In this document: in pieces, positions 8,873 to 38,474 of the stretch
How positions within the stretch are numbered: the stretch's first letter is position 1
Layout: every line of letters begins with the position of its first letter
Assembly (NCBI GenBank): GCA_028285315.1
Contig: JANQPU010000156.1
Span: 1-48,582 of the forward strand
Direction of reading: 5' to 3'
Source of the DNA: Acaryochloris sp. IP29b_bin.176
GTDB lineage: Bacteria; Cyanobacteriota; Cyanobacteriia; Thermosynechococcales; Thermosynechococcaceae
DNA length: 48,582 nucleotides
Notes under the pieces: generated by a model
Seen by the model: the letters and a program-made list of their open reading frames with translations, nothing else
Database searches by the model: none
What the model was told of the DNA's origin: nothing
Program-made: the position numbers and the translations under genes

Positions 8873-11614
8873 ATGGAAGTTCTCTCTGTTACGCTAAAAA
8901 ACTTTAAGGCCCATCGCGATCGCTACTATGAGTTCCGACCGGGGGCCAATGCGATTTGTGGTGAAAATGGGTCGGGGAAAACCAGCATCCTAGAAGCGAT
9001 TGCCTGGGTTCTATTCGATCACAGCGAATATAAGCGAGTCGAACTGATTAGTGTGGGGGCTAAAAGTGCTCAGGTGAGCGTCAGTTTTGTCTCTCACCTA
9101 GATGGACGCGTCTACGATGTCCGTCGCTGTACGAGTCGTGGCTATGAAGTTCACGACCCCCAGCTCAATCGCAAGCTGGAACTCAAAAAACTGGATGATG
9201 TCCGTTGCTGGCTCTGTGAGAATTTGGGTGTGGGCGTCCATACGGAACTTGCCAAGCTATTTGCAGAAACCATTGGTATTCCCCAGGGCACCTTTACGGT
9301 GGATTTCCTGAAGTCAGCGGGCGATCGCAAAAAGGTATTCGATCCCATCTTGAAGGTGGAAGAGTACAAACAAGCCTACGATCAAGCTCAAAAATTAACC
9401 AGCTATGCTCAGGCCCAGGTCCAACAGCTAGAGCAAAAGTTACAGAGCTACGACCAACAGTTAGAGGGGTGGGAAGAACTCAAGCAACAGCAGGTAGAGC
9501 TAGCCCAAACTCTAGCTCAGCATCAGGCACAGATGAAAGCGCTAGCCCAGCAGATGATTGAGATCCAGGCTGAGCTGATGGATTTAAAGGCGCAAGATCA
9601 AGCCTTGCAAACCCTGGAAAAACAGGTTCAATATTTACAAACCCAGTGGACGAGTAAACAGGAAATTTTACAGCTCTTAGAAGAAAATTGGCAGCAAGCC
9701 GAACAAGCGGTCCAGACTTGTCGCCAGCATCGACCTCAGTTTCAAGCCTATCAACAAGCCCAAGAGACCCTGAAGACCTTAGCGCAACACCAAAAGCAGC
9801 GGCAGCAACTGCTGCAAGAGCGAGATCGCATCCACAATACCCTCCGCGATCAGCAAGTCCTGCTCTCTCAAAACCAAGGCCAATTCTCCACCTTTGCCAA
9901 GACGAAGACCGAACTCCAGGACTGGCAAACCAAGGTCCCACAGCAACAGCAGCTCGAACAAGAAAAGACCACTTGCCAACAGGCCCTCCAAACCCTAGCC
10001 TTGGAACAGCAACATCTGCAACGACTGCAGGAACAAATCCACAAACAGCAGCAGAATCGGGAAACCCTCAATCAAACCATTAGCCAACTGGTCGCCCTAG
10101 AAACACAAGTTCAGGCTATTCCTAACTTTGAAGCTCAGCAGCAGAAGATTCAAGAAAGACTGGGACGGATTGCCGCCGCCCAGCAATTTGCTACGGAATT
10201 ACAGACCTTAATCACCGAGGCTGAACCCCAACAGCAGCAATATCAACAGCAAGTGGGCAAAGCGAAGGATCTGCTTAGTCGTCTGTCCCTGACCAAAGCC
10301 CAGACCACTCAACTAGCCAACATTTTGGACCAAGGGGCTGCCCTGACCCACCAGATTATTCAGCAGCTCCAAACGGCTTTCGCCGACATTATTGATCCAC
10401 AGGCGGTCACCAAGCTCAAGCAACAGCTTCAGCAGATCAAAACCCAACTCAAAGCCGCCCAAAAAGCCCAGACACAATGGCTAATGCTAGATGCCAAACA
10501 GCAGCAGCTATCAGAGCTAGAGCAAGGGATAGCGTCACTGCAGCAAGAGTGCGATCGCATCCACACCACCCTTAACCAAGAATCCCAACTCCAGAACCAG
10601 CTCGCACAGCTCAACACCCAACTGACCGCGCTCAACAATCCCCAAGGCCATGTCCATATCTTGCAACAACAGCTGCAAGGCGCAGCCCAACTGGAAGCCG
10701 AAATCACGCGCCTCCAACAGGCTTGTCAACGTTATGAGCAGTCCCTCACCACTTTTGAAACCCAGATCCAATCTTTGGGCGATCTAGAAGCCCAATTCGA
10801 TGCCCAACAGCAGATCCAGCAAGAGCATCAGGAGGTGTATCAGCTCTATTTACGCCATCGGAATCAGGCCAATTCCTTCAAAGAGCTGGATCAGCAACGC
10901 CGAAGTGCGATCGCAACCCAAACCCAACTGTACACTCAGTTGACCGAAGCTCAAGCCCAATGGCAGGAGAAAGCCCAACAGCATAATCCTGAGCGGCTGG
11001 CTGAACTCAGCCAAACCTATGAGCAACTACAGCGGCAACAGGATCAGCTTCAGGGTGGACTAGCTCCCCAACAGGCTCAGCTTCAATATTTAAATCAGCA
11101 ACTGCAAGCCAAACAAGCCCTCGCCCAAGAACGAGAGCAGATGTTGGTGGCCTTAGAAGACAAGCGTCAGGTCTCACAATTCGTCACTGATGCACGCAAT
11201 ATCTATAAGCAAAGCGGTCCAAGGATCACCAAATTTTATCTAACGGAAATCTCTTGGGAGGCGGATCGACTCTATCGGGAGCTGCTAAATCGACCCGATG
11301 TAGCCTTACAGTGGACCGAAGATTATGAAATTCAGGTGCAAGAGCAAGGGCATTGGCGCGGCTTCAAGAGCCTTTCGGGAGGGGAGCAAATGTGTGCGGC
11401 TTTAGCGGTCCGCCTGGCTTTGCTCAAAGTATTAGTGGATATCAATATTGCGTTTTTTGACGAGCCTACGACCAACATGGACGAACTCCGTCGTCGGCAG
11501 TTGGCCGAAGCCCTAGGACATCTCAAATCTTTTCATCAGCTCTTTGTCATCAGTCATGATGATACGTTCGAGAGCGTCACAGAAAATATTATCCGAGTGG
11601 AGCGAGTGACCTAA
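8873..11614 (+). CDS. SbcC/Rad50/SMC-like ATPase with long Gln-rich coiled coil
   Basis: The 913-residue protein has split ABC-type ATPase halves at its ends: Walker A GENGSGKTS at 30-38, ABC signature LSGGEQ at 834-839, and Walker B FFDEP at 861-865, followed by SHDD. Between about 165 and 770 runs a very Gln/Leu-rich coiled coil. The layout is that of SbcC/Rad50, which works in double-strand break and hairpin processing with the SbcD nuclease. No CxxC zinc hook is present in the coiled coil, and no sbcD gene is nearby, so it may be a different branch of SMC-like proteins. The ATG at 8873 is the natural start for MEVLSVTLKNF. The repetitive CAA/CAG-rich coding DNA creates long false ORFs in other frames. 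Confidence 0.87.
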   Translation: MEVLSVTLKNFKAHRDRYYEFRPGANAICGENGSGKTSILEAIAWVLFDHSEYKRVELISVGAKSAQVSVSFVSHLDGRVYDVRRCTSRGYEVHDPQLNRKLELKKLDDVRCWLCENLGVGVHTELAKLFAETIGIPQGTFTVDFLKSAGDRKKVFDPILKVEEYKQAYDQAQKLTSYAQAQVQQLEQKLQSYDQQLEGWEELKQQQVELAQTLAQHQAQMKALAQQMIEIQAELMDLKAQDQALQTLEKQVQYLQTQWTSKQEILQLLEENWQQAEQAVQTCRQHRPQFQAYQQAQETLKTLAQHQKQRQQLLQERDRIHNTLRDQQVLLSQNQGQFSTFAKTKTELQDWQTKVPQQQQLEQEKTTCQQALQTLALEQQHLQRLQEQIHKQQQNRETLNQTISQLVALETQVQAIPNFEAQQQKIQERLGRIAAAQQFATELQTLITEAEPQQQQYQQQVGKAKDLLSRLSLTKAQTTQLANILDQGAALTHQIIQQLQTAFADIIDPQAVTKLKQQLQQIKTQLKAAQKAQTQWLMLDAKQQQLSELEQGIASLQQECDRIHTTLNQESQLQNQLAQLNTQLTALNNPQGHVHILQQQLQGAAQLEAEITRLQQACQRYEQSLTTFETQIQSLGDLEAQFDAQQQIQQEHQEVYQLYLRHRNQANSFKELDQQRRSAIATQTQLYTQLTEAQAQWQEKAQQHNPERLAELSQTYEQLQRQQDQLQGGLAPQQAQLQYLNQQLQAKQALAQEREQMLVALEDKRQVSQFVTDARNIYKQSGPRITKFYLTEISWEADRLYRELLNRPDVALQWTEDYEIQVQEQGHWRGFKSLSGGEQMCAALAVRLALLKVLVDINIAFFDEPTTNMDELRRRQLAEALGHLKSFHQLFVISHDDTFESVTENIIRVERVT

Positions 11615-12690: not shown

Positions 12691-13402
12691 CGTTTACAGT
12701 CTCACTACCACTTGCTTCATCTTCAGTGAAAAACTTGAGAAAATCCGTGATCTGGCTATTCCTAGATGGTGTTCTGAATCAATCATCTATGTGATTAGAA
12801 TCACTCACCCAACCTAATCAACAGCTATTGCATTAGGGGTAAAAAGTGGTCTTGACTCAGCAACATCATCAAAGCAGCCTTTGAAGACTTGAGGTCTCCG
12901 TAAAATTGCGTACTCTTAACTGTTACAGGTGCGTCATTCCCCCAGCAATGGTGGATATACTGAGCCTACTGAGCCCAGATGAGTAGGGCCTGGGAGGAGC
13001 ACATACATTGGATGAAAAGTCCGTAAATCTACGGTTGCCCGATCATCAAACATCACTGGGAAAACTAAGCTCTGTCGTTGCCACCCAGGCTGGGTTAAAA
13101 AGATTGAATTTGCCCTAGTGCGGCTCACTGACAAGGCGATGAAATGCTCTTACAGTAAAGAAAATTAACCGTAGCGGACATCATTGATTGAGATCACACT
13201 TGTTAAGTGTTCATGATCATTACAAGTCCTGATGTACGTTACAGCACAGAGATGGGCAAAAGAAGAATATAACTTTGTGAGTTAGATTCCTCGTGAGTTT
13301 AACGCTAGGTCAGGTGATATCGACAAGAGTAAGTCCACTGTAGTTTCGCTTACGTCAGTTTCATTCTCTATCGCTCTATCTTTTGCCAGGAGGGTAACCC
13401 CC
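12691..13402. other. large divergent intergenic region
   Basis: There are 712 bases between the divergent genes at 12690 and 13403. Apart from the CRP-like dyad at 12790-12805 I see a weaker half-matching site (ATTGATTGAGATCACA, 13183-13198) and a small ACACTT-GTT-AAGTGT stem nearby. A 66-codon minus-strand ORF (12934-13134) has no ribosome-binding site or recognisable product, and I do not call it. Confidence 0.45.
12790..12805. promoter_or_regulatory. CRP/SYCRP1-like operator
   Basis: TGTGATTAGAATCACT matches the cyclic-AMP receptor consensus TGTGA-N6-TCACA in 9 of 10 positions and holds a perfect GTGATT-AG-AATCAC dyad. It is centred about 107 bases upstream of the secreted-protein start at 12690. 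Cyanobacterial SYCRP1 uses this type of site. Binding is inferred from sequence only. Confidence 0.4.
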
Positions 13403-13954
13403 ATGACTCCAGAAGCCAAGCAAATCCTTGTCCAACTACGAGAAACCTTTTACGCTCAGTTTGCCGCAGCGATGAAATGGGAAGTGTCTGTTACCAAAGA
13501 CAACTCTCTTATTTTTAGCCCTTCACTTGCTGCGATCGCATCTTGGGTAGATGACCAACAGCGCTTTAACTATCTCAGTGTCCAGGCCCATACTTGCCCC
13601 GATCCGCTCTTCCCCCATCGGCCTCTAACGTTACGGATTGCCATTAATCCACCCAGTGGTGTGATCACCAATACCAAGACGGTGAAAAAGAAAACAGGGC
13701 TGAATCTTAATTCATCTTGGAGTTTCAACTTAACGGTGTTGCCCGAAGAAATTGTCGATATGGCGCACTGGGTTGCTAGCTGGATTCATTCCCAAGATAA
13801 CGACAGCGTTGCCATTGCTGCCCCGTATCGATTGAAAGTGGCACCTACTGAAGACGACAGTGACTATCAAGTCTGGACTCAAACCGCTTGGGATTGCTTG
13901 AATCCAGAAGAGCAGCCCGTTGCTCCTATGGATCAGCCCTACCACGCAGCTTGA
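13403..13954 (+). CDS. conserved hypothetical soluble protein
   Basis: The 183-residue product has no signal peptide or membrane segment. A strong ribosome-binding site (AGGAGGG, 13388-13394) precedes the ATG and argues that the gene is real and well translated. The sequence has an N-terminal helix (TPEAKQILVQLRETFYAQFAAAM), a central beta-rich part with basic VKKKTG, and an acidic, Pro-rich tail. The gene ends 190 bases before the best start of the CPBP protease and may be co-transcribed with it. I do not recognise the family. Confidence 0.65.
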   Translation: MTPEAKQILVQLRETFYAQFAAAMKWEVSVTKDNSLIFSPSLAAIASWVDDQQRFNYLSVQAHTCPDPLFPHRPLTLRIAINPPSGVITNTKTVKKKTGLNLNSSWSFNLTVLPEEIVDMAHWVASWIHSQDNDSVAIAAPYRLKVAPTEDDSDYQVWTQTAWDCLNPEEQPVAPMDQPYHAA

Positions 13955-14144
13955 TTACACCTGAACTCCATTGCAATCCATCGGTAAAGTGCCGATAGAG
14001 TCGGCTATTCATCCGATTGAGGCCATCGCCAAGCCCTCAAGGTATGGCTACTTCCACAACTACTTGCACAATTCCAGAGCCAGCCATGGCAAAGTCAACT
14101 CACCGCGCTACAGTGGTGACGACTCTGCTTGTCAAACAGCGCTT

Positions 14145-14882
14145 GTGAAACCGTCAGATCCTTTTCCTGTGAACCCTTGGAACGCCTGGGAAACGGTGGG
14201 ACTAACGATCCTGATTTTGGTGGTCTTCTTTAGTATCAGTAGTGCGATCTCACTCTTCTTCGTCATCTTGCGGTTGGTGCAAGACCCCAGCCTTACCCCT
14301 CAAGCAGTAATGGAGGCCATTGAAACAGATGGCCTAGTGTTATCCATTGCAACCCTCATTGCGGGTATCTGTGCGAGTGGCCTGATTTACGCGCTGTTAA
14401 AGGTGCGCCCCGCCTTAACCGTTAAACACTATCTTGCCTTACGGCAACCGCGATGGACGGCTTGGATTATCTGGAATGGGCTGCTACTTGCCCTGATTCT
14501 GCTGTCAGACTCCGTTCTGCGATTCTTTGAGCATCAAGAAACCTTCACCACCAAACTCTATCAAACAGCTCAAATTCCCATGCTTCTCTACATTGCCATT
14601 GTGGGAATTGCGCCATTGTTTGAGGAATTGCTCTTTCGGGGGTTCTTATTTCAGGGACTCCAGTCTTCCCGACTGGGGTCTGGCGGAGCAGTACTGATCA
14701 CGGCTGTAGGATGGTCCATCTTGCATGTTCAATATAGTGCCCTAGTCATTAGCCAAATCGTTTGTTTTGGCCTTCTGTTTGGGGTGGCCCGCTGGAAAAC
14801 CCATTCTCTGCTCATTCCCCTATCCATGCATTGTCTCAACAATTTTTTGTCTCTGTTGATCACAAGTTTGCAGCTTCCTTAA
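14145..14882 (+). CDS. CPBP-family intramembrane metalloprotease (CAAX protease-like)
   Basis: CPBP/Abi proteins are polytopic membrane proteases related to eukaryotic Rce1. The glutamate motif EELLFRGFLF lies around 14620-14650. It is followed by the second-motif His in GWSILHVQY and the third His in MHCLNN at the C-terminus, which together form the expected metal site. Six to seven hydrophobic segments are visible. The reading frame is open back to a TTG at 13971, but that extension is polar and unlike the family. I prefer the GTG at 14145 (VKPSDPFPVNPWNAWE), which puts the first membrane helix near residue 16; no start has a strong ribosome-binding site. Substrate unknown. Confidence 0.82.
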   Translation: MKPSDPFPVNPWNAWETVGLTILILVVFFSISSAISLFFVILRLVQDPSLTPQAVMEAIETDGLVLSIATLIAGICASGLIYALLKVRPALTVKHYLALRQPRWTAWIIWNGLLLALILLSDSVLRFFEHQETFTTKLYQTAQIPMLLYIAIVGIAPLFEELLFRGFLFQGLQSSRLGSGGAVLITAVGWSILHVQYSALVISQIVCFGLLFGVARWKTHSLLIPLSMHCLNNFLSLLITSLQLP

Positions 14883-27912: not shown

Positions 27913-30342
27913 TTACCCTTCTCCTAAAGAACGTAGAACACTGAGAACGTTGTTATAGTCATCGGTGCGGCCTTGCTTGGCATAGAGATCGGCCGCTTTT
28001 TTTAGATCTGTAATAGCCTCCTGTCGTTTGTTCTGCAACGAATAGAGCAAGCCCCGTTTGTAGTAATCTTCAGCGGCATCGGGCTTGAGGCGAAGAGCCT
28101 CATTAAGATCGCTCAAGGCCCCGTCCCAATCTTTGAGCTTGATTCTAGCGCTGGCACGATTAGAGTAAGCTGCTTGGCTGCGACTTTCACTGTTGCGAGC
28201 AGCGTTAATTTCAATCGTGCGCCCATAATCTTGGATAGCGCCTGTCGTATCTTCCAAACGCAGTCGAATATTACCGCGTGCATTATACAGGGCTGCACTA
28301 CTGGGATTGATCTCTAATCCCTTGTTGCAATCTTCAAGGGCACGCTGTAATTCATTGAGAGACAATAAGGTCCCACAACGGTTGTTGAGGACAAAGGGAT
28401 CATTAGGATTAATGGCGATGGCCCGATCATAAGCTTTGAGCGCCTCTTTACGATCAGACTGTTGGCCTTGATAAGCCCGCAACTCGCCTCTGAGCATGTG
28501 GGCAGTTGTAGAGTTGGGATTAGTTGCCAGGGCCTGATTAATCGCTTTATGGGCCTGCTCTGTTTCACCTTGTTCGTAGAAGATGATACCTAGATTGGTA
28601 TGAGCCCGAGTGAGTTTTGGATTAATGCTGAGGGCCTGATTGTAATCTGCGATCGCATCTTGCTTTTGACCCAGCCTAGATTTAGCATAGCCCCGACTTG
28701 CATAGTCTTTCGCAGTCCGCACAGGAAGCTCTAGGACACGGTTCCAGTCTTGTTTAGCCCCGTCTTGATCACCGAGGAGCGAACGATAACTCCCCCGATT
28801 CACATGGGCTGATAAATGGTTTGATTCCGCTTGGATGGCCTTATCTAGTTCTTTCACTGCAGCTTCCAGTTTGCCCTGGATGAAAAAGACGGCGGCTAAG
28901 TTGATATAGCCTTCGGCCTGTTTGGGCTGTAGGCGAATTGCCTGGCGATGATCTGCGATCGCCTCCTCATACTTGCCCAGTTCTTCTCGGACATACCCTC
29001 GATGGTTGTAAGTTTCAGCGTCCTTGGGGTCAAGTTTGAGGGCTTCGTTATAGTCTGCGATCGCAGCTTGGTATTCCCCAGTGGCAAAGCGAATTTCACC
29101 TCGCTCTCGATAGGCCGCCGCTGTTTTTGGCTGCTGTTTTAATAAACTACCGAACTGGGTTATGGCCTCCTCATACTTGCCAATTTCGGCATAGGTCTCA
29201 CCCAGTTTCAGAGCTGCTTCTGTATAGTCTGCTTTTAGCGCTAATGCCTGCTCAAAATTCTCTGTGGCAGACTGCCAGTTGCCCGCTTGGGCTGCCTGTT
29301 GGCCCCAAAAATAATGCCATTGGGGCCGGAAGAGGAAAAAGAGACTTGTGGATGCGATCGCAATGCCACTTGCCGCCAGCCCAATCCATTGCCACCGATG
29401 TTTGGGCGGCGGCTGGGACTGATTAGCAAGAGAGGACTTATCTTCAGCGGGAGATGACTCAGGTGTTATAGGAGAGGTTTCATCTTTGGCAGATGGATGG
29501 GATAGCATCGTACTGGCTTGGGTGATAGATTGTAGCGCAGTCCGCATGGCTGCAACTGTGGCAAATCGATGTTTAGGATGAGGTTTAACCAGTTGATCCA
29601 GCAAACTTTTAAAGGGGGGGCTCAGGTGCTCACAATCCTGCTTCCATTGCAATCGCCCCGTTGAACTGTCCGTCTCAAATTGGTCGGGGAACTTGCCCGT
29701 TAACAAATAAATCGCCGTTAGGCCCAAACTATAAAGATCGCTAGCAAAAGTAGGTCGACCCGCCGCCTGTTCTCTGGGCATAAAGCCAAGGGTGCCAATC
29801 ACAATTGAGCGGCTGGGCTGTCCCTGGGCATTAATTTGGGTGGCCATCACTTCCTTGACTGCACCAAAATCAATCAGACAAGGCAGTTGATCGGCAGCGC
29901 GAACAATAATATTGTCGGGTTTAATATCCCGATGGATAATATTGTGCCCATGAATGTAATTGAGGACATTAAGGATCTGATAGAGCAGCTTGATCACGTC
30001 AGCTTCATTCAGTGGGCCTTGAGTTTTGACAATTTCGGTAAGGGTCTGACCTTCTATCCATTCCTGTACTAAATTAAATTGTCCAGCTTCTTCAAAATAG
30101 GCAAATAAACCGGGAATTTGAGGATGGCCTTGGCCAATTCGCTCTAAAATTGCTGCTTCCCGTTGAAATCGTTCAAGGACGATTTTCTGGACCCGATCAT
30201 TATTGAGTACTGGTTTGAGCTGCTTAATCACACAAAATCGCCGGGATGGCATCTGCACATCTTCAGCTAAGAAGGTTTTACCGAATCCGCCCTCAGTTAA
30301 TGCCTTGAGGATACGATACCGGCCATTAACAAGTCCTACCAT
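27913..30342 (-). CDS. membrane-anchored Ser/Thr protein kinase with TPR domain
   Basis: The 809-residue protein has an N-terminal Hanks-type kinase domain (about 8-275) with all key residues: TEGGFGKT loop, Lys40, HRD at 137-139, Asn144, DFG at 158-160, and activation segment ending [11 protein letters not shown] Pro/Ser-rich linker leads to one transmembrane helix (about 318-338). The rest, on the other side of the membrane, is about a dozen TPR units. It should phosphorylate cytosolic targets in response to an extracytoplasmic or thylakoid-lumen partner bound by the TPRs. It is coupled to anmK, which hints at a cell-wall link. Its start is only 53 bases after the end of the upstream gene cassette. 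Confidence 0.92.
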
Positions 30343-30395
30343 TTATTTTGCAATGTGCGGTATTCGTCTGAACAAGCAAGATAAACCCTGTTTTC

Positions 30396-31280
30396 TCATG
30401 CCGCTAGGGTAACCTGCATTCGCTTCTGTTGGCGTAAATAGCCATGCAAAATTTCAGCATCCATGCCATGAAGCATCAACCGAAAGCCAGCATGCAAAGT
30501 AATTAAAGGGATACAGGGATGGCGATTGTTGACCAAACTTAAGGCCATCGGATCTTGCAACAATTTACTGATATAAATCGCGATCGTTTCATCCAACTGT
30601 AATGAATTGGTAGCTCGCCAGAAATCGTGATCGGATAAAAATAAGGCATAGACTGGCGTATACACCTCAATTGCTGATTGCAAATCGACAAAATTCGTCC
30701 ATCGCTTGCGCCCAGGGTTGATCTCAAATTCACCATCCGTAATTGCGTCGAAGTTGAGCCGTTTCGGTGCTTCCAAGGTCCGATTCTCAGCCTTCAACTT
30801 TTGATTCAGCTCAATAATAAAGTTATATATGTTCAAGTCATGAATCAGGAAGGTGTTGTCCTTTAAATCTTCTAAACAGGTGGGGCGTAAAGATTGTGTA
30901 GACGTGATCTCAATTCCAGCATTATCTGCAATAAAATTGAGAATTTCTGTGCCAATGACAAAGTGCCGCAAAATCAGATAGTTGCTATCAGGCGTGACAA
31001 AATACTTCAATCCCCAATAGATCAACTGATGCAGTAGTCTAGACGAGCTTAACCATTCTGGAATAACAATCCGCAGCAGCTTCACCCCCACAATCATCAG
31101 CTTGGCAAAGGGACGCACTAACGGTAGAAAGATACGGCGGGAGCGGCTGTTATGGCCCCTCAGAAGGGCTCGCTTTGCTTGATCATGGAGGGGCAGACTG
31201 GCATCTAGATAGAGCGCCAACCAGGGATTGGGGTCGTTAATATTAATGATTTGTTGATCAAACGCTGTCTGCCAACTCAT
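30396..31280 (-). CDS. unknown protein in ketosynthase/HDO cassette
   Basis: This is a 294-residue protein I do not recognise. The N-terminal half has an amphipathic to hydrophobic region (PLVRPFAKLMIVGVKLLRIVIPEW; LLHQLIYWGLKYFV) that may be a membrane surface or lipid-binding segment. Several His are conserved-looking (ILRHFVIGTEILNFI; LHAGFRLMLHGMDAEILHGYL). No signal peptide. Its ATG overlaps the stop of the preceding HDO-like gene as TGATG, so it should be made together with that protein and act in the same pathway. A TTG one codon earlier is also open. Confidence 0.7.
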   Translation of the reverse strand: MSWQTAFDQQIININDPNPWLALYLDASLPLHDQAKRALLRGHNSRSRRIFLPLVRPFAKLMIVGVKLLRIVIPEWLSSSRLLHQLIYWGLKYFVTPDSNYLILRHFVIGTEILNFIADNAGIEITSTQSLRPTCLEDLKDNTFLIHDLNIYNFIIELNQKLKAENRTLEAPKRLNFDAITDGEFEINPGRKRWTNFVDLQSAIEVYTPVYALFLSDHDFWRATNSLQLDETIAIYISKLLQDPMALSLVNNRHPCIPLITLHAGFRLMLHGMDAEILHGYLRQQKRMQVTLAA

Positions 31281-31981
31281 CAATAATGTCCTAGTTCTTC
31301 TAGCTGTAAGAGGTATAACCGAGCGGTGACTTTGGCGGTGCGAACAATCGCCTCATCCATTCCTGTTATATCCAAAATTGAGCTAGTCAGCAGGTCTTCC
31401 AGTTCCTGGAGATGATCTTCGTCGTGGGCCGCATGGTAGCGATAGAATTCTAACTGATCGGGATCCGTGATTAAGGGGTTCTCGTCCAAGGCATTGGCAA
31501 AGGTTTGGGCAAAGCGTTTGCCTAAGCCCTCAATAATAAACATGGCCCCCAATAGATCAAAGGGGTTGGGCTGGGAGGCCCGGTGATACATCCAGGCCGA
31601 GAGGGCTTCGGAGCCAATATTTTTGCGGGCACTGATCAACTCTGCTGGTTGGCCCCCGGACGCCAGATAGCTTTTCTCCAACATTTGATAGTCAAGATGT
31701 TCAGTGGCCGCATGACGGATAAAAACAGAGCGCTGATCTAAATAGGGGGCCGTAATCGAAGAGGCGGCACGGCTAATCCAGCCACTGCCTTCCACGACTT
31801 GCTGGTAATGATCGCTAATTAAGGTGAGATAATCCGCTAACCGGAGCTGCTGCTGCATGGCCCGAGCCACAATCGGCACCTTCAATAACCGACTTTCAAA
31901 ATCGGCCCACACCATCGTCAGTTGCCGGAGGACGCGTTGGGCCTGGGTAACGTTGCTCTGAAGTCGGGGTTGAGTTTGCAT
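31280..31981 (-). CDS. heme-oxygenase-like diiron oxidase (HDO)-type protein
   Basis: This is a 233-residue all-helical protein of the 'iron-containing redox enzyme'/TenA-PqqC-like superfamily. The C-terminal motif HAAHDEDH (His183-x3-Asp187-x2-His190), together with Glu151 (FIIEGLG) and His95 (ATEHLDY), lines up in spacing with metal ligands of known HDOs such as CADD. The sixth, acidic ligand is not clear (Glu64 or Glu94). HDOs use iron and O2 for difficult oxidations, for example fatty-acid decarboxylation by UndA. It lies between a ketosynthase-like gene (4 bases upstream) and an unknown protein (1-base overlap), pointing to an acyl or acyl-derived substrate. Activity is inferred. Confidence 0.78.
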   Translation of the reverse strand: MQTQPRLQSNVTQAQRVLRQLTMVWADFESRLLKVPIVARAMQQQLRLADYLTLISDHYQQVVEGSGWISRAASSITAPYLDQRSVFIRHAATEHLDYQMLEKSYLASGGQPAELISARKNIGSEALSAWMYHRASQPNPFDLLGAMFIIEGLGKRFAQTFANALDENPLITDPDQLEFYRYHAAHDEDHLQELEDLLTSSILDITGMDEAIVRTAKVTARLYLLQLEELGHY

Positions 31982-31985
31982 GGAA

Positions 31986-33116
31986 TTACACCACGGTTAA
32001 ATGCATAAAAGCCGCAATACAGCGCCCACTTTCGGGCACAAAGCAGAGGATCCGCTGTCCGGGCTGTAAGGGATGTTGCTGAACTAGCTCTTCCAGCATG
32101 ATAAAAATAGAGGCAGTGCCCGTATTGCCATAGCATTCTAGGTTATTGCACCATTTCTCTTCCGCAATCATGGCCCCGGTTCGGCGTAGCAATCGCTTCA
32201 TTTCTTCGCCTAAGGAGTGGGAAGAGTAGTGGGGCAAAAAATAGTCGATGGCATTGGGATCCAGATCGTATTTCTCTAGCAGTTCCAGATAATAGCCGAC
32301 CCAAATCGGGAACATGGCATAGAGAACCTCGAAGTCTTGTTTGAGTGCGATCGCACCAGCTTCATAGGCCGCTTGGGGAGACTCATACAATCCCCACCCT
32401 AAATCATCTGCCCCAGTATTGCTCTTGGCTCCAGCATACATACAGGGTGGGAAACGATCGGCAAAGGACTTCAACTGAATCCAATCAATCCGCAACGATA
32501 CCCCATCGGGTTTAGGGTGAGGTTCCAAAACCACAGCCCCTGCCCCATCCGATAAAGTCCACCGCAAAAACTCAATTTGAGGATCGGGCTTGGCATCTTG
32601 GTCATAAAAAGGCTGATAAACCGCAGGTCGAAACCAGCGGCTAGCAAATTCACTCCCACTCGCCACCGCCAGTTGGGATTCGCCTATTTTGACATTGAGC
32701 CAGGCATTTTTGACGGCCATAAGGCTACTGGCGCACACACTCTGAAACGAGAAAATGGCTAAGGGGGGAATTCCCAACTCGGCATGAACCGAACTCGCGA
32801 ACCCTGGTACCAGGTAATCGCCTTGGGTGGTACTGGCTGCCAGCAGATCCACCTGTTCCGGCTGGCAGCGAGCATGCTTGAGGGCATTATGGATGGCATT
32901 CGCGGCCATGGCGGCATTGGTATATCGGTAGCCACCCTTCGGATCTAGGGCATAGAAGCGGTGCTTAATCCCATTCTTACGTAAGATGGCGGACCCTAGC
33001 GTTGAGCTACGCTTACTAATACAACCGATGTACGCCGCCATGTCAGCGTTAGTAACGGGTTCTCCCGGTAGAAACTTACCAACTCCAGTAATGTAAACGT
33101 CTTGACAGGAAGGCAT
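31986..33116 (-). CDS. beta-ketoacyl synthase III-like enzyme
   Basis: The 376-residue thiolase-fold protein has a complete KASIII-type triad: Cys128 in FQSVCASSL, His296 in LPHYSSHS and Asn331 in YGNTGTAS. It is longer than FabH (about 320), and the usual HQAN around the His is absent. It is therefore more likely a specialised ketosynthase or acyltransferase (as in DarB-, PqsD- or OleA-related pathways) than housekeeping FabH. I start at the ATG giving MPSCQDVYITGVG; a TTG two codons earlier is open. Gaps to neighbours are 8 and 4 bases. Together with the HDO-like gene it suggests condensation of acyl units followed by an oxidative step. The product is unknown. Confidence 0.87.
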   Translation of the reverse strand: MPSCQDVYITGVGKFLPGEPVTNADMAAYIGCISKRSSTLGSAILRKNGIKHRFYALDPKGGYRYTNAAMAANAIHNALKHARCQPEQVDLLAASTTQGDYLVPGFASSVHAELGIPPLAIFSFQSVCASSLMAVKNAWLNVKIGESQLAVASGSEFASRWFRPAVYQPFYDQDAKPDPQIEFLRWTLSDGAGAVVLEPHPKPDGVSLRIDWIQLKSFADRFPPCMYAGAKSNTGADDLGWGLYESPQAAYEAGAIALKQDFEVLYAMFPIWVGYYLELLEKYDLDPNAIDYFLPHYSSHSLGEEMKRLLRRTGAMIAEEKWCNNLECYGNTGTASIFIMLEELVQQHPLQPGQRILCFVPESGRCIAAFMHLTVV

Positions 33117-33124
33117 GGGCAAAG

Positions 33125-33421
33125 CTAGCTCAGCTGCATATAGACTGACGACTTGCCCATGATAGGTACAGTCACCGCATCTACAGCTGCATCATAGCCT
33201 GCCGCTGTTCTACAATAACCAAATATTTCAATGCGTCGATCATCATCCTTGCATCCATACTGATTGAGGTAAACCCCAAACACGGCATTAGCCGTATAGC
33301 AGACTTGACTTAAGCCATCGGTCATACTCGCTACATTAGCGACAGTATTTGCTATTTTATTGTCAAAGAATGATGAAACAGCATCAATTGGGAGATTGCT
33401 CAGATAAACGGCCAAATCCAT
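33125..33421 (-). CDS. small unknown protein heading ketosynthase/HDO cassette
   Basis: This is a 98-residue protein starting MDLAVYLSNLPID, with three Cys (CYTANAV, YGCKDDD, FGYCRTA). No clear helix-turn-helix or acyl-carrier DSL motif is seen, so it is not an obvious acyl carrier protein or regulator. It starts a divergent promoter region and ends 8 bases before the ketosynthase ATG, so co-expression is very likely. No ribosome-binding site is obvious, and the N-terminus may be wrong. Function unknown. Confidence 0.55.
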   Translation of the reverse strand: MDLAVYLSNLPIDAVSSFFDNKIANTVANVASMTDGLSQVCYTANAVFGVYLNQYGCKDDDRRIEIFGYCRTAAGYDAAVDAVTVPIMGKSSVYMQLS

Positions 33422-33674
33422 GCTTGTTAATAGATTTACCGATTACAGCCTATAAGTTTGGTATCAAAATGGGCACACTACAGTCATCAGTGTTGATGGA
33501 GATTTGATATCCAGGCTGCCTGCAGCAATCGGCTGTGGTAGCTGTGTTCTAGCACATAGTGAGTGCAAGTCTGACTTGTGGTCTCAGCGGTCGGGGGATC
33601 CTGCATTGAGTTGCAGTAGGCCATCGCTTTTGCAGCAATAGAGTCACGTCCTCTTTCGAGATATAAGTTTTTCA

Positions 33675-34598
33675 GTGGTGTTTTTTCAAAAATTATTTCG
33701 TCAGCCTCAGCGTCCTTATAATGCTACTTCTTCTGAGAGCCTAGAAGCTTGTCTAGCTCAGTATGATCAGGCCATCGCGCATGGGACAGATAATAACGAA
33801 GTGTGGTTTGGGCGAGGGTGCGTCCAAGTTGAACTCAAACGTTATCAAGAGGCCATTCGCAGCTTCGATCGGGCGTTGGCCCATCGTCCCAACCATCTAG
33901 ATGGTTGGCATAATCGGGCGTTAGCGTTTTGTCAATTGGGCCTCTATGAAGAAGCGGTCAGTAGCTATGAGCAGGCGCTCAAGTTTGGGGGTGTGCCGTC
34001 TCAAGATTGGTATTTCCACGGGACGTTGCTGGCTCAACTTGATCGCTATGAAGGGGCCATCAACAGTTATGAGCAAGCCCTAAGTCTGGATCCTGATCGG
34101 GCGCTGATTTGGTACGACCGAGGCATTGCTCTGTCCTGGCTGGGGCATTTTGAAGATGCGATCGCAAGTTACGATCAAGCCTTAAATCTGGATCCTAATC
34201 TCCATCAAGCTTGGTTCCGTCGTGGCTTAGCGTTCAATCAATGCCAAAATTATGCTCAAGCGTTGCGGTCTCTTGATAAAGCTTTATCGATTGATACCAA
34301 GAGTGCCGAAGTATGGGCAGCTAAGGGATTAGTACTACTGCAACTTCAGCAATATGAAGAGGCTATTGCAGCCCATGAAAAAGCGATCAAACTTAATGCC
34401 AAGGATGATCAAGTTTGGTACAACAAGGCGTGCTGCCATGCCCATCACCAGCAGCTTGATCAAGCTATTGCCAGTCTTGAGCAAGCTATTTGCCTGAATC
34501 CAGAGGCTATTCGCGAACTTGCTAGCACCGATCCTGACTTACAGCTATTGCATCAACAACCTGCTTTTCAAAAGCTCATGGGAGTGTGGAACCAGTGA
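33675..34598 (+). CDS. tetratricopeptide repeat protein
   Basis: This is a 307-residue soluble protein made of about seven consecutive TPR units (from residue 27 to 280), with the regular pattern WYDRGIALSWLGHFEDAIASYDQAL and close copies. The start is a GTG (two GTG codons in tandem), and the N-terminus (FFQKLFRQPQ) is short and basic with no signal peptide. TPR proteins of this kind are protein-binding scaffolds, and the partner cannot be deduced. It is divergent from the ketosynthase/HDO cassette and shares a 253-base promoter region with it. Confidence 0.82.
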   Translation: MVFFQKLFRQPQRPYNATSSESLEACLAQYDQAIAHGTDNNEVWFGRGCVQVELKRYQEAIRSFDRALAHRPNHLDGWHNRALAFCQLGLYEEAVSSYEQALKFGGVPSQDWYFHGTLLAQLDRYEGAINSYEQALSLDPDRALIWYDRGIALSWLGHFEDAIASYDQALNLDPNLHQAWFRRGLAFNQCQNYAQALRSLDKALSIDTKSAEVWAAKGLVLLQLQQYEEAIAAHEKAIKLNAKDDQVWYNKACCHAHHQQLDQAIASLEQAICLNPEAIRELASTDPDLQLLHQQPAFQKLMGVWNQ

Positions 34599-35599: not shown

Positions 35600-36793
35600 T
35601 TAGTCCGGTAAGTCGTATTGACTAACAATGCGCTTAGCGTACTCAGGCACATGGGCATCCACTTTATCAGGATAGTTACGCTTTACGTAGAGGTAGTTAC
35701 GAGTAAAGTGCGAATCAATCGAGAACCGCGCATATTCTAAACCTCGGGGACCAATCTTGTCGATGACCACCCCCATCAGCTTGGCCGCCCACATGGGCAG
35801 CGTCACGCCTTTGTCATAGGCAGGGATACTATTTTGAACTGCTGCATGGCGATCACCTTCAGATATGACAGGCTGGGTTTCCAACTGATCCATCACCAGA
35901 TCCAGCATTTCTTGGCCCGTCTCGTTGCGGACCACAATCCACTGCCAGCCAAACGGAGAGCCCATATAGCCCACCACCAGATCCGCCAGGGAGTTGGTGT
36001 AGTCAAAACAGCTCATGCAGGAAGGCGCAAAAATATCCTTGAGCTTATTGGTCTTGAGGCCAAAAAAGGGCACCGTCTCAGTCGAGCCATCTTCATGCTT
36101 GAAGTGGATGCGGAAGTCCTGCATGAATTCGTAATGGACAACCGTATCGGGGGAGCGGCTGGTGGTTTCCAAAAACGTCTGCAACCCGGCTCGATTAACA
36201 TTGTCTACACAGGGTGTCCCCAAGACATAGAGTTTCTCCAGCCCTAAACTATCCTGAACGGCCCGTAGCGCTTGGGTTTGGCACCCCACCCCAATCACGC
36301 AGAGACGCTTCATTCCTGACTGCTCAATCTGCTCCAGCACAGAGAGGTTAGGCGAGAGGGTAGGCTTGTTCACCCGAGCGGCTAACACCTCTTCAGGGGT
36401 GCGGGCAATGATGGGTTTGGGTTGAAACCGATCTTCATCTGTATTTTGGATGCAGACCACACCCTCGACTTTGCCCTGCTTCAGCATTTCCATACCGATG
36501 GTGCTAACAATCCCCGTCCATTGGGCACCGGGAATCGGATCAATTTTGCGGGCGGTCATCATTTGGGTGCTGACCCCAAAATACCAGTCATCCTCGTTAT
36601 CCAAGTCTCGGCTGCGGCCATGAGCCTTTTCTTCCAGCTCAGCCACCTGCTGATTCAAAAAGGCACAGGCTTCTTTGACGTAATGAATATAGTAGGTATC
36701 GCAAAGACCACATTCACTACAGAGTTCCTTGGCAGGTCGAGGACTGGTCGCCTTCAGGGCTTTGGCTTTTTTGTGGGGTTGTACCGAGGTCAT
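35600..36793 (-). CDS. bciB: ferredoxin-dependent 8-vinyl chlorophyllide reductase
   Basis: BciB reduces the 8-vinyl group of divinyl protochlorophyllide/chlorophyllide to ethyl, using Fe-S clusters and flavin with ferredoxin as donor. The 397-residue protein belongs to the F420-hydrogenase beta-subunit/HCAR family. It has an N-terminal Cys cluster (CSECGLCDTYY: Cys25, 28, 31, then Cys43), a central domain, and Cys259/Cys262 in APSCMSCFDYTN. It corresponds to Synechocystis Slr1923. I start at the ATG giving MTSVQPHKK; a TTG two codons earlier is open. It lies downstream of a Rieske oxygenase of the chlorophyll-degradation family. 7-hydroxymethyl chlorophyll a reductase is the nearest alternative. 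Confidence 0.9.
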   Translation of the reverse strand: MTSVQPHKKAKALKATSPRPAKELCSECGLCDTYYIHYVKEACAFLNQQVAELEEKAHGRSRDLDNEDDWYFGVSTQMMTARKIDPIPGAQWTGIVSTIGMEMLKQGKVEGVVCIQNTDEDRFQPKPIIARTPEEVLAARVNKPTLSPNLSVLEQIEQSGMKRLCVIGVGCQTQALRAVQDSLGLEKLYVLGTPCVDNVNRAGLQTFLETTSRSPDTVVHYEFMQDFRIHFKHEDGSTETVPFFGLKTNKLKDIFAPSCMSCFDYTNSLADLVVGYMGSPFGWQWIVVRNETGQEMLDLVMDQLETQPVISEGDRHAAVQNSIPAYDKGVTLPMWAAKLMGVVIDKIGPRGLEYARFSIDSHFTRNYLYVKRNYPDKVDAHVPEYAKRIVSQYDLPD

Positions 36794-36932
36794 AGTCAAA
36801 TTAGGCTTTCAGCACCTGGAAGCAAGCACAAGGCACCGATTTAAGGTTATCTAGCATTCCGATTGTAAACAGTTTCGGGGCAGCAGCAAAAGAACCGACA
36901 TTTTTTTCTCTTATGGCTGGGTTTGGTAGAGG

Positions 36933-38474
36933 TCAATCATTATGGGCATGATCAAACTCATAGACATAAAACAGGCGGCTAAATCGTTGCAGTAAATAGC
37001 CACCCGCTGCTAAGACCACACTACAGAGCCATAACTCCCAAAATTCCGGTGGGGGAACCATTAAGAGTAAAGAAGTATCAGGAGTAGCGATCGCATGAAG
37101 GGCTTGCGATCGCGCATCCAGCATTATTCCCAGACCAAAGCAGACCACTGCTCCGATATACGCCACCCTCTTAAGCTGTTGAATGCGGTTCAAAGCCTGA
37201 CGACAGACCTGACAATCTTTGGTGTGCGTATGCCAGACATCAAATAACTTTTCTTTCTCTGTTTGAGAGGGAGGAAGTTGAGTATCACATTGCCAGGGAA
37301 TACCTTTGCCTGCTCGGGTTTTGAGCCACTGTCGCAGGGTAATCACCATCTTGTCTTGGGGATTCGGTGTATAAACTGTCTCCAACCAATTTCCCTGTTC
37401 TTGATATTCAATTCGTTGTTCTTGGTAGTGCAGAAAAACTAAATCTTGATGGAGAAAGAGGGGAGATAGGACATGCCCCAGCCACACAGGCATAGGCCAG
37501 GCAAAAAAGCCTAATCCTGGAGGTATTTTCCCTTGGGTATCCTTTACCAAGACTTGACAACCAATGTGGCGGCACCAGCCTGGGCGGGTGGGGCTGGCAT
37601 AAAGAGCCAAGATCATTTGCCCTCCGTTCTTATAAGTCGTGACGACGCGCATATGGCAGGGGGGTTGAAAGTCGTGCAGCGTCTGTTTAACACCACTAGG
37701 GACTGGGTGGATGTCAAAGGCAAACCCCTCCTGAGTTGACATCTTTCGCACAGTATTCATGGTGAAATAGTTGGCATCCCGATAGCGATTACCCACAATG
37801 CCGTGATGAGAAACCGGAACATGAGCTGGGTCAGCAACGTTTTCCATAAAAAAGTCCCAGCCATAGGGCAGATCACGAACATACCAATATCGCTTAACAA
37901 CGCGATCGGAAAGTTCCTCCAACTCAGGAATAATTCGGGGAGAACGCTCCTGACTGAGAGACTGAGACGTCTCGCTGTGATCAGGCCACACCCAAATCAA
38001 GCCTTGCCGAACTTGAGTCGGATATGCGATCGCACAAGACCGCGGATTGGCTCGATGTTGTTTGGCAGTGTCCAGATCGAGACTTTGAGGGATATCTAAG
38101 CAATGCCCCTCAGCATCAAACCGCCAGGCATGATACGCACACATTAAGGTGCCATCCACTTCGACCCGTCCTTCGGATAAGGGGGCGAGGCGGTGAGGAC
38201 AGCGATTCTCAAAGCAATGCCATTCTCCGAGCTGGTCGCGCCACATCACCAGCTCTTTTCCTAACAATTGGATTGCATGTGGGCTTTTCGGGTCAAGGAA
38301 CTCCACGACCGCAACCGGATACCATTGCTGTGTCCATTGAAATTGTTCAGGTGCGGTGGGAGAGGTCTCAACATCTGCGACGGACGGTGTTACCTCTACC
38401 GATTGGGACGATGTGGGCTTGGGATCAAGGGACAAGCGGTTTTGAGTCGTCACTGTCTTAACAATTGCGCTCAC
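36933..38474 (-). CDS. pheophorbide a oxygenase-like Rieske monooxygenase
   Basis: The 513-residue protein has a Rieske [2Fe-2S] site (CPH at 92-94, CAYH at 112-115) and a mononuclear iron site in the pattern ENVADPAHVPVSHH (Asp215, His218, His223). It also has the C-terminal CxxC (Cys421/Cys424) diagnostic of the PAO/PTC52/Tic55 family, and two C-terminal membrane helices (about 434-453 and 476-495). Plant PAO opens the chlorin ring of pheophorbide a; PTC52 acts on protochlorophyllide a. The cyanobacterial homologues (lethal-leaf-spot/Slr1747 type) have no settled substrate. The start codon is GTG. It is located 133 bases upstream of bciB on the same strand, which fits a role in chlorophyll side-chain or ring chemistry. 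Confidence 0.88.
   Translation of the reverse strand: MSAIVKTVTTQNRLSLDPKPTSSQSVEVTPSVADVETSPTAPEQFQWTQQWYPVAVVEFLDPKSPHAIQLLGKELVMWRDQLGEWHCFENRCPHRLAPLSEGRVEVDGTLMCAYHAWRFDAEGHCLDIPQSLDLDTAKQHRANPRSCAIAYPTQVRQGLIWVWPDHSETSQSLSQERSPRIIPELEELSDRVVKRYWYVRDLPYGWDFFMENVADPAHVPVSHHGIVGNRYRDANYFTMNTVRKMSTQEGFAFDIHPVPSGVKQTLHDFQPPCHMRVVTTYKNGGQMILALYASPTRPGWCRHIGCQVLVKDTQGKIPPGLGFFAWPMPVWLGHVLSPLFLHQDLVFLHYQEQRIEYQEQGNWLETVYTPNPQDKMVITLRQWLKTRAGKGIPWQCDTQLPPSQTEKEKLFDVWHTHTKDCQVCRQALNRIQQLKRVAYIGAVVCFGLGIMLDARSQALHAIATPDTSLLLMVPPPEFWELWLCSVVLAAGGYLLQRFSRLFYVYEFDHAHND

Follow-up and report, generated by a model that had tools for sequence, protein, structure and literature searches.

What could a ketosynthase (KS), a heme-oxygenase-like dimetal oxidase (HDO) and a protein of the orphan Pfam family DUF6999 do together when their genes lie side by side? 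This question is raised by a locus of Acaryochloris sp. IP29b_bin.176 on contig JANQPU010000156.1, in a window, i.e., the whole stretch of DNA that was analysed, of 48,582 nucleotides. A preliminary description of the locus had proposed that a KASIII-like enzyme and an HDO lead to an acyl-derived metabolite. This core idea holds, as far as sequences and structure models can tell, on the co-occurrence of the genes, the predicted fold and residues of the HDO, and the grouping of the KS. A search of the open-access literature, outside which most subscription papers lie, found no description of a KS-HDO-DUF6999 unit.

Gene organization of the locus

The locus comprises the following features.

33125..33421, minus strand: 98-aa ORF upstream of KS, probably neither a gene nor part of the cassette
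31986..33122, minus strand: KS, ketosynthase of predicted StlD/DarB type, 378 aa from TTG at 33122 or 376 aa from ATG at 33116
31280..31981, minus strand: HDO, heme-oxygenase-like dimetal oxidase, 233 aa, PF14518
30396..31280, minus strand: DUF6999 protein, 294 aa, all-helical model, PF22523

All four ORFs that had been described are present on the minus strand with the spacings given for them: 8 bases separate the stop of the 98-aa ORF from the ATG of KS, 4 bases lie between KS and HDO, and HDO and DUF6999 overlap by one base (TGATG). However, the claim of a four-gene cassette stands only for KS, HDO and DUF6999, which have family matches and are under purifying selection, and not for the 98-aa ORF, which is not conserved. 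When the window was compared with two other Acaryochloris, dN/dS was 0.025–0.054 for the three genes (six comparisons) and 0.061–0.113 for two flanking genes (four comparisons), ratios that are rough because dS exceeds 1 in several comparisons. The 98-aa ORF has no match among Pfam and NCBIfam profiles at E ≤ 0.1, and the six other genomes of the genus yielded none at E ≤ 0.01; G002, a sister genome, has two weakly aligning pieces (E 9e-6) in a frame interrupted by stops. Non-conservation in the genus and these stops led to its rejection as a fourth component; an ORF that arose by chance or has decayed, lying in the leader, is the best reading. No regulatory RNA was found in 29500–34000 at gathering scores, and neither promoter-like sites (4 vs 5.7) nor terminator-like sites (4 vs 4.0) are above shuffled sequences.

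Three genes as a proposed unit

Both KS and HDO are also present in 79 of the 80 kept loci with a DUF6999 relative, the sole exception (L055) being ended by a contig end. In 68 of these 79 loci they are a single polypeptide with HDO as the C-terminal part, 67 of them as one open frame and the remaining one (L127) on the other strand, which argues against chance neighbours. In an even draw of 292 cyanobacterial genomes, DUF6999 was found above its cut-off in 7, KS (E ≤ 1e-60) in 10 and HDO (E ≤ 1e-20) in 8, and in all seven DUF6999-bearing genomes the three genes lie side by side. The co-occurrence check that had been suggested is thus borne out for three of the four genes, KS, HDO and DUF6999.

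The cassette is rare among cyanobacteria, occurring in 7 genomes of the even draw and in 10 of 58 when near relatives were drawn. When an empty site was sought in a cassette-less congener (G005), only AnmK and its neighbour, among the window genes tried, matched within 18 kb round AnmK, which is uninformative on such a site. In another genome (G150), where no DUF6999 was found, the KS-HDO copy carries an internal stop and lacks the HDO end. The cyanobacterial setting in which the cassette had been pictured is not specific to it, as it is spread over five other phyla, Pseudomonadota, Bacillota, Bacteroidota, Bdellovibrionota and Acidobacteriota. Horizontal spread is suggested by a careful KS tree (a 35-row subset without OleA; a quick tree has 76 rows), in which Acaryochloris KS groups with Microbulbifer. 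A search of plasmids for DUF6999 matched one record, and 50,697 phage records gave no match at E ≤ 1e-5. A plasmid locus of Pseudoalteromonas sp. THAF3 (NZ_CP045419.1) has the same order of KS, HDO and DUF6999 as three separate genes, flanked by 185-aa and 634-aa proteins without assigned function. Its DUF6999 protein scores 321.9 bits on PF22523 and yet is only 28% identical to that of the window, and its HDO gene is annotated as an iron-containing redox enzyme, with no Pfam match at E ≤ 0.01.

The ketosynthase resembles StlD and DarB

To which kind of ketosynthase does the window KS belong? It matches Pfam ACP_syn_III_C and NCBIfam models of the StlD/DarB family, scoring 365.5 bits on NF005293 and 306.6 bits on NF053539, under the curated cut-offs of 450 and 550, respectively; the former is passed by 4 of 10 cyanobacterial cassette KS. 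The StlD structure 5gk0 matches residues 7–378 of the window KS (E 1.7e-75), and identity to DarB-like and StlD rows is 38–41%. The full Cys-His-Asn triad that had been claimed for the KASIII-like protein is found as C130, H298 and N333 (numbered from the TTG start), invariant in 58/58 aligned rows (the window and 57 of the 80 loci). Furthermore, 20 positions are identical in all 64 cassette KS and in 4/4 DarB/StlD, yet are shared by at most one of seven FabH rows. StlD and DarB are thus like the cassette KS in full-length homology, catalytic triad and diagnostic positions.

The careful tree separates FabH at 100/100, and rooting on FabH places DarB/StlD inside the cassette KS family. A FabH-type gene is present elsewhere in the window genome, on contig C26. 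The tree, the 20 diagnostic positions and this separate gene rule out that the KS is a housekeeping FabH, an identity against which the preliminary description had set its proposal; the KS groups with StlD/DarB instead. Judged by its sequence, it is StlD/DarB-like, of the kind that makes dialkyl-cyclohexanediones. The products of DarB and StlD are (4-carboxy-)2,5-dialkylcyclohexane-1,3-diones (PMC5515871).

Does the locus then belong to an ordinary dialkylresorcinol DarA/DarB cluster? A DarA-like gene was found in none of 20 cassette-only genomes, the window genome among them, as against 3/3 genomes with a DarB-like KS, in a search with one query protein that was named by its position beside darB, had no family-model match and could let a distant homologue escape. 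NF053540, tried as a DarA model, is LolB2_flexi; it had no match in 12 genomes and is uninformative on DarA. The three DarB-like genes (G129, G144, G334) encode frames of 383–386 aa, score 503–506 bits on NF053539, under its cut-off of 550, and adjoin a DarA-like gene without an HDO. In contrast, the cassette KS has HDO as its fusion partner or neighbour and is accompanied by DUF6999, with no DarA-like gene found. One genome, Parazoarcus G334, carries both systems, the cassette and a DarB-like KS with a DarA-like gene. An ordinary DarA/DarB cluster, or a housekeeping FabH with an unrelated HDO as its neighbour, would therefore be a highly improbable account of the locus: the former would suit a KS of the StlD/DarB kind but is rejected since no DarA-like gene was found in the window genome (an assembly of 87% completeness), and the latter is at odds with the KS-HDO fusion and with the distance in the tree between the KS and the FabH-type gene of C26.

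An HDO with an unusual set of putative ligands

The HDO matches PF14518 with 36.6 bits (cut-off 28.9), and its AF2 model (pLDDT 92) has a heme-oxygenase-like helical fold. In a Foldseek search the best match of the model was CADD 8va9 (TM 0.80/0.87), and UndA 4wwj also matches by fold (TM 0.71/0.66), whereas by sequence no UndA chain in the PDB matches the HDO (E ≤ 1; also E ≤ 0.1) and the NCBIfam CADD model TIGR04305 gives 16.2 bits, far under its cut-off of 200. H90, E94, D97, E151, H183 and H190 are invariant in 59/59 rows, and D187 is kept in 55 rows and replaced by Asn in the other four. The metal site that had been expected is therefore supported at the level of a predicted CADD/UndA fold and an invariant His/acid set.

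E151 and H183-x3-D187-x2-H190 fit the ligand pattern of α2 and α3, respectively, in published accounts of the superfamily (PMC11611611, PMC11363339). Five positions of the motif E-H-E-H-(D/E)-H are kept as E94, E151, H183, D187 (55/59) and H190, while the first-His position is D97, which aligns where 3dde has its first His, and H90 is an extra invariant His. The aligned ligand set would be 2H/4C, or 3H/4C if H90 binds, compared with the usual 3H/3C of such accounts. Thus, the cassette HDO differs from CADD, UndA, SznF, AetD, BesC and FlcD by D97, H90 and the ketosynthase fusion. The carboxylate of the substrates of UndA and AetD binds Fe1 (PMC11611611).

UndA converts fatty acids to 1-alkenes, according to the 2026 review. 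An OleA/UndA-like route without ring formation can be envisaged, in which simple head-to-head condensation by the KS gives a 2-alkyl-3-keto acid, the substrate for an oxidative decarboxylation by the HDO that yields an enone, ketone or alkene. The fold match to UndA and the lipid-modifying neighbours described below favour this route, which we nevertheless regard as unlikely: the KS has the 20 DarB/StlD positions absent in FabH, DarB/StlD fall inside its family (in the tree without OleA), and no obvious Ole partner was seen among the few neighbour genes scanned.

DUF6999 and lipid-related neighbours

The DUF6999 protein scores 395.7 bits on PF22523 (cut-off 27), a Pfam entry that gives no function, and the term DUF6999 was not found in the open-access literature. 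Its AF2 model is confident and helical (pLDDT 89.9); the fold has no match at E ≤ 0.001 in the PDB (best E 1.8) or among viral structure models, and the sequence has none in the PDB at E ≤ 10. In 62/62 rows, 24 residues of the H/D/E/C/Y/K/R/Q/N kinds are invariant. A hydrophobic stretch lies near residues 50–75, and the highest 19-residue hydropathy mean is 1.59.

Within 1.5 kb of the cassette, homologues of PF04116 FA_hydroxylase occur in 23/80 loci and those of FA_desaturase in 8/80, with none elsewhere in the fetched flanks, although near hits are favoured because the neighbour queries came from genes found near the cassette. An SDR adjoins the cassette in some lineages, and a DAGK gene lies directly downstream of it in L061; at the window locus itself, hydroxylase and desaturase are not adjoining. 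Might the unit then make or repair a structural long-chain lipid, with the hydroxylase, desaturase and DAGK in the same pathway? These neighbours and the hydrophobic stretch of DUF6999 would suit such membrane-lipid remodelling, but the patchy occurrence among cyanobacteria and the apparent horizontal spread suit an accessory metabolite better, and we consider remodelling quite improbable.

A model for the cassette pathway

Our working model, held tentatively, is that of one biosynthetic unit in which the KS joins two acyl thioesters, the HDO oxidises the product and DUF6999 is a third enzyme. Initially, the KS would condense two acyl thioesters in the manner of DarB and StlD, to a 2,5-dialkyl-cyclohexane-1,3-dione, its 4-carboxy precursor or a close β-keto acid. 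Then the HDO, which we infer to act on this product, would use O2 and Fe (or Fe/Mn) to oxidise it. The most parsimonious chemistry would be an oxidative decarboxylation of the UndA type: if a 4-carboxy-cyclohexanedione lost its C4 carboxylate and its C5 hydrogen, a 2,5-dialkylresorcinol in its keto tautomer would remain, and the HDO would thereby stand in for the missing DarA aromatase. Finally, DUF6999, whose linkage is tight and whose many invariant residues include His, Asp, Glu, Arg and Asn, may act on the hydrophobic product as a third enzyme. Resorcinol as the product, and any role of DUF6999, are conjecture. A KS-HDO pair that made the resorcinol by itself would leave it unexplained why DUF6999 is constantly present.

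How far can this model be extended? In its boldest form, a bifunctional KS-HDO, with a dimetal HDO of unusual ligand set aromatising the KS product by oxidative decarboxylation, would provide a second route, dependent on O2, to dialkylresorcinol-type lipids. DarB/StlD would have arisen from it later by loss of HDO and DUF6999 and recruitment of DarA, and the product would also be acted on by DUF6999, an enzyme with a new helical fold; taken as a whole, this is a rather doubtful proposition. A different outcome is that the KS makes a cyclohexanedione like DarB and the HDO inserts oxygen into it, yielding a signal or antioxidant lipid of hydroxylated or quinone type that DUF6999 tailors further. 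The varied oxidations by HDOs in the review, the carboxylate-rich ligand set unlike the usual one and the regular presence of DUF6999 would all be in keeping with this, but the oxygenations named for HDOs in the accounts drawn on here are N-oxygenations, and oxygen insertion seems improbable to us.

Implications

Three loose ends meet in the cassette: a Pfam family that is an orphan, an HDO subgroup that is distinctive, and the many ketosynthases that databases label only "StlD/DarB family". As KS and HDO often share one polypeptide, one small construct allows all three to be tested. The three-gene set has the look of a small, uncharacterised machinery for linking two fatty-acid chains and then oxidising what results. 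The words "ketosynthase" and "fused" are absent from the main text of the 2026 review, and, within what that text covers, the fusion of a ketosynthase with an O2-activating metal oxidase would couple two activities in a way new to HDO chemistry. The tree hints at an origin of DarB/StlD within the broader cassette system, and thus the chemistry of the cassette may bear on the origin of bacterial cyclohexanedione and resorcinol biosynthesis.

Gene organization of the cassette

The cassette comprises three genes, encoding a StlD/DarB-type ketosynthase (KS, 378 aa from a TTG at 33122), a heme-oxygenase-like dimetal oxidase (HDO, 233 aa) and a protein of the DUF6999 family (294 aa):

31986-33122, minus strand: KS, with the likely start at the ATG at 33116
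31280-31981, minus strand: HDO, 4 bases after KS
30396-31280, minus strand: DUF6999, overlapping HDO by 1 base

The preliminary description had included a fourth gene, a 98-aa ORF whose stop precedes the KS ATG by 8 bases. The other three genes hold together: among the best 80 of 202 relatives found by scanning genome contigs with a DUF6999 alignment, KS and HDO share the locus with DUF6999 in 79 (tblastn, E ≤ 1e-4), the exception being a locus (L055) in which a contig edge falls inside HDO. The 98-aa ORF is not conserved in Acaryochloris. Its product matches no Pfam or NCBIfam family at E ≤ 0.1, and a search of six congeners at E ≤ 0.01 found no counterpart. In the sister genome (G002) two weakly aligned pieces (E 9e-6) lie in a frame interrupted by stops. 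The ORF was left out. The dN/dS values of KS, HDO and DUF6999 (0.025-0.054, six comparisons) are below those of two neighbours (0.061-0.113, four comparisons), all being rough because dS exceeds 1 in several comparisons. DUF6999 was found in four of seven Acaryochloris genomes, several of these being incomplete.

Linkage, fusion and co-occurrence

KS and HDO lie in a single frame without an intervening stop in 67 of the 79 loci, and a further locus on the other strand (L127) has both in one 594-aa ORF, giving 68/79. The 11 non-fused loci, some of which may be frameshifted assemblies, are those of Acaryochloris sp. IP29b_bin.137 (L054), Microbulbifer (L056-L060) and Caulobacter (L094), together with L080, L095, L104 and L110. 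Five of the six loci first found in cyanobacteria outside Acaryochloris are fused, the sixth (L052) having overlapping frames, and in four further such genomes the KS and HDO matches share an open frame (607-633 aa). Among 14 control genomes, DUF6999 is present in that of Caulobacter vibrioides alone.

Co-occurrence was surveyed in an even draw of 292 cyanobacterial genomes, with scoring limited in each genome to the top 6 to 10 candidates and with cut-offs (KS, E ≤ 1e-60; HDO, E ≤ 1e-20) set to exclude FabH and other HDOs. DUF6999 was above cut-off in 7 genomes, KS in 10 and HDO in 8; an eighth DUF6999 match, below cut-off and containing stops, was dropped. All seven DUF6999-bearing genomes carry the three genes together, which bears out the association across cyanobacteria; independence would predict 0.007 such genomes, a figure made too small by relatedness. 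The three additional KS-only genomes are two with DarB-like clusters containing a DarA-like gene (G129, G144) and one with a decayed KS-HDO copy (G150; L157, G150:C1:5334000-5346000), in which the KS frame has one internal TAG, HDO is cut after about 60% and DUF6999 was not found. Intact copies are present in two genomes of the same genus as G150. KS, HDO and DUF6999 very probably constitute one biosynthetic unit.

The ketosynthase and its relation to DarA/DarB clusters

Among NCBIfam models, KS scores best against the StlD/DarB family (365.5 bits, below the cut-off of 450) and then against DarB (306.6 bits, below the cut-off of 550); FabH-type models score far lower (101.5 and 85.9 bits). The nearest solved structure is StlD (E 1.7e-75, residues 7-378). 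Twenty positions are identical in 64/64 cassette KS and 4/4 DarB/StlD rows; each of them recurs in no more than one of the seven FabH rows. KS does not group with housekeeping FabH: in a careful 35-row tree, the outline of which matches that of an earlier quick 76-row tree, support of 100/100 sets FabH apart, and DarB/StlD form a single clade at 100/99. Cassette KS are monophyletic in 0/200 bootstrap trees. When rooted with FabH, the tree places DarB/StlD within cassette KS, as sister to an Acaryochloris-Microbulbifer-Caulobacter group with modest support (85/90), the root being distant, DarB/StlD having four rows and two rows being of odd composition.

Three KS of G129, G144 and Parazoarcus (G334), which we read as DarB-like from their scores, reach 503-506 bits, above the FabH background and below the NF053539 cut-off of 550; that of G129 passes NF005293 (551.4 bits; cut-off 450). 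The adjacent protein, which matches no family model, was named DarA-like in G129 and G144 from its position beside the DarB-like KS and its homology to the Parazoarcus counterpart (36% identity). Among 23 genomes searched, it is present in all three with a DarB-like KS, whereas no match was detected in the 20 cassette-only genomes with a single query, which a remote DarA could escape. The Parazoarcus genome carries both a DarB-like KS (503.5 bits) and a cassette KS (278.1 bits): in P. communis the former has a DarA-like neighbour (G334 C220, L162), and the KS-HDO-DUF6999 cassette lies elsewhere (L132).

HDO and DUF6999

HDO matches PF14518 (36.6 bits). Its AlphaFold2 model, built like the residue counts on 59 rows (the window and 58/80 loci), has a pLDDT of 92 and matches CADD (TM 0.80/0.87), the unassigned Shewanella protein 3dde and UndA (0.71/0.66). 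Among residues of the H/D/E/C/Y/K/R/Q/N kinds, Q61, H90, E94, D97, N121, E151, Y182, H183, H190, Y223 and Q226 are invariant (59/59); D187 is kept in 55 rows and is Asn in four. In the alignment with 3dde, E94, E151, H183, D187 and H190 fall on Glu, His and Asp residues, as would be expected of ligands; D97 occupies a His position. According to the literature, described HDOs have mostly three His and three carboxylates; since D97 replaces a His, the predicted set of this subgroup is either 2H/4C or, if H90 binds, 3H/4C.

The DUF6999 protein scores 395.7 bits against PF22523. Its model, based with the residue counts on 62 rows (the window and 61/80 loci), is nearly all helical (pLDDT 89.9), with no match at E ≤ 0.001 among solved structures (best E 1.8) or viral models; a profile search of PDB sequences gave nothing at E ≤ 10. 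Twenty-four residues of the same kinds are invariant in 62/62 rows, a pattern that may reflect an active site more than a structural scaffold.

Neighbouring genes and possible horizontal transfer

Within 1.5 kb of the cassette, homologues of PF04116 fatty acid hydroxylase occur in 23/80 loci (sharing its strand in 19), of fatty acid desaturase in 8/80 and of SDR in 6/80, the Pfam names being taken from three, two and one proteins, respectively. Elsewhere in the fetched flanks, no hydroxylase or desaturase and two SDR matches were found, with queries that were taken from genes near the cassette and are thus biased toward near matches. In L071 (10973-12361) a protein combining PF04116 and PAP2 phosphatase domains is encoded immediately downstream of the cassette, and in a Bdellovibrionales MAG (L131, 10842-12345) two consecutive hydroxylase-like ORFs of one cluster lie downstream. 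On a Pseudoalteromonas plasmid (L134) the cassette is flanked on the same strand by a 185-aa protein (9681-10238) without a Pfam match and a 634-aa protein (12885-14789) with an Ig-like match below cut-off only. Two metagenome bins titled Bordetella parapertussis (L104, L112) have cassettes; the title of L112 may be wrong, as its KS clusters with uncultured Betaproteobacteria in the quick tree.

The window cassette adjoins no hydroxylase, desaturase or SDR gene. Its neighbours, a Ser/Thr-kinase-like protein with repeats, AnmK and a TPR protein, are syntenic in other cassette-bearing Acaryochloris. Also in the window are a gene whose product combines protein kinase and FGE-sulfatase (SUMF1-like) domains (6921-8783, plus strand) and, on the minus strand, adjacent genes for FrhB-type (F420 hydrogenase beta-like) and Rieske/pheophorbide-a-oxygenase-like proteins (35600-36799 and 36933-38474); this pair, which recurs in syntenic stretches of two other Acaryochloris, possibly has a role in chlorophyll metabolism.

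Acaryochloris KS clusters with Microbulbifer KS at 100/99 in the 35-row tree, and Acaryochloris DUF6999 is 66-70% identical to that of Microbulbifer, compared with 30-37% to other cyanobacteria. This likeness suggests horizontal transfer.

Proposed working of the cassette

KS would join two acyl thioesters in the DarB/StlD manner, and HDO, often on the same polypeptide, would oxidize the product released; that HDO acts on the KS product is likely. According to PMC5515871, DarB produces 4-carboxy-2,5-dialkylcyclohexane-1,3-diones and StlD a related dione. If the cassette product were a 4-carboxy-cyclohexane-1,3-dione, UndA-like loss of CO2 and an adjacent hydrogen would, by our chemical reasoning, lead directly to a 2,5-dialkylresorcinol in its keto form. 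Such a route would account for the KS-HDO fusion, the missing DarA and the lipid-type neighbours; resorcinol chemistry is nevertheless a tentative and rather doubtful assignment. In the open-access literature searched, we found no description of the KS-HDO-DUF6999 combination or of the HDO residue set. KS and HDO are of known kinds and DUF6999 is an orphan family, the constancy of which is left over by the resorcinol route and suggests at least one further step beyond KS and HDO.
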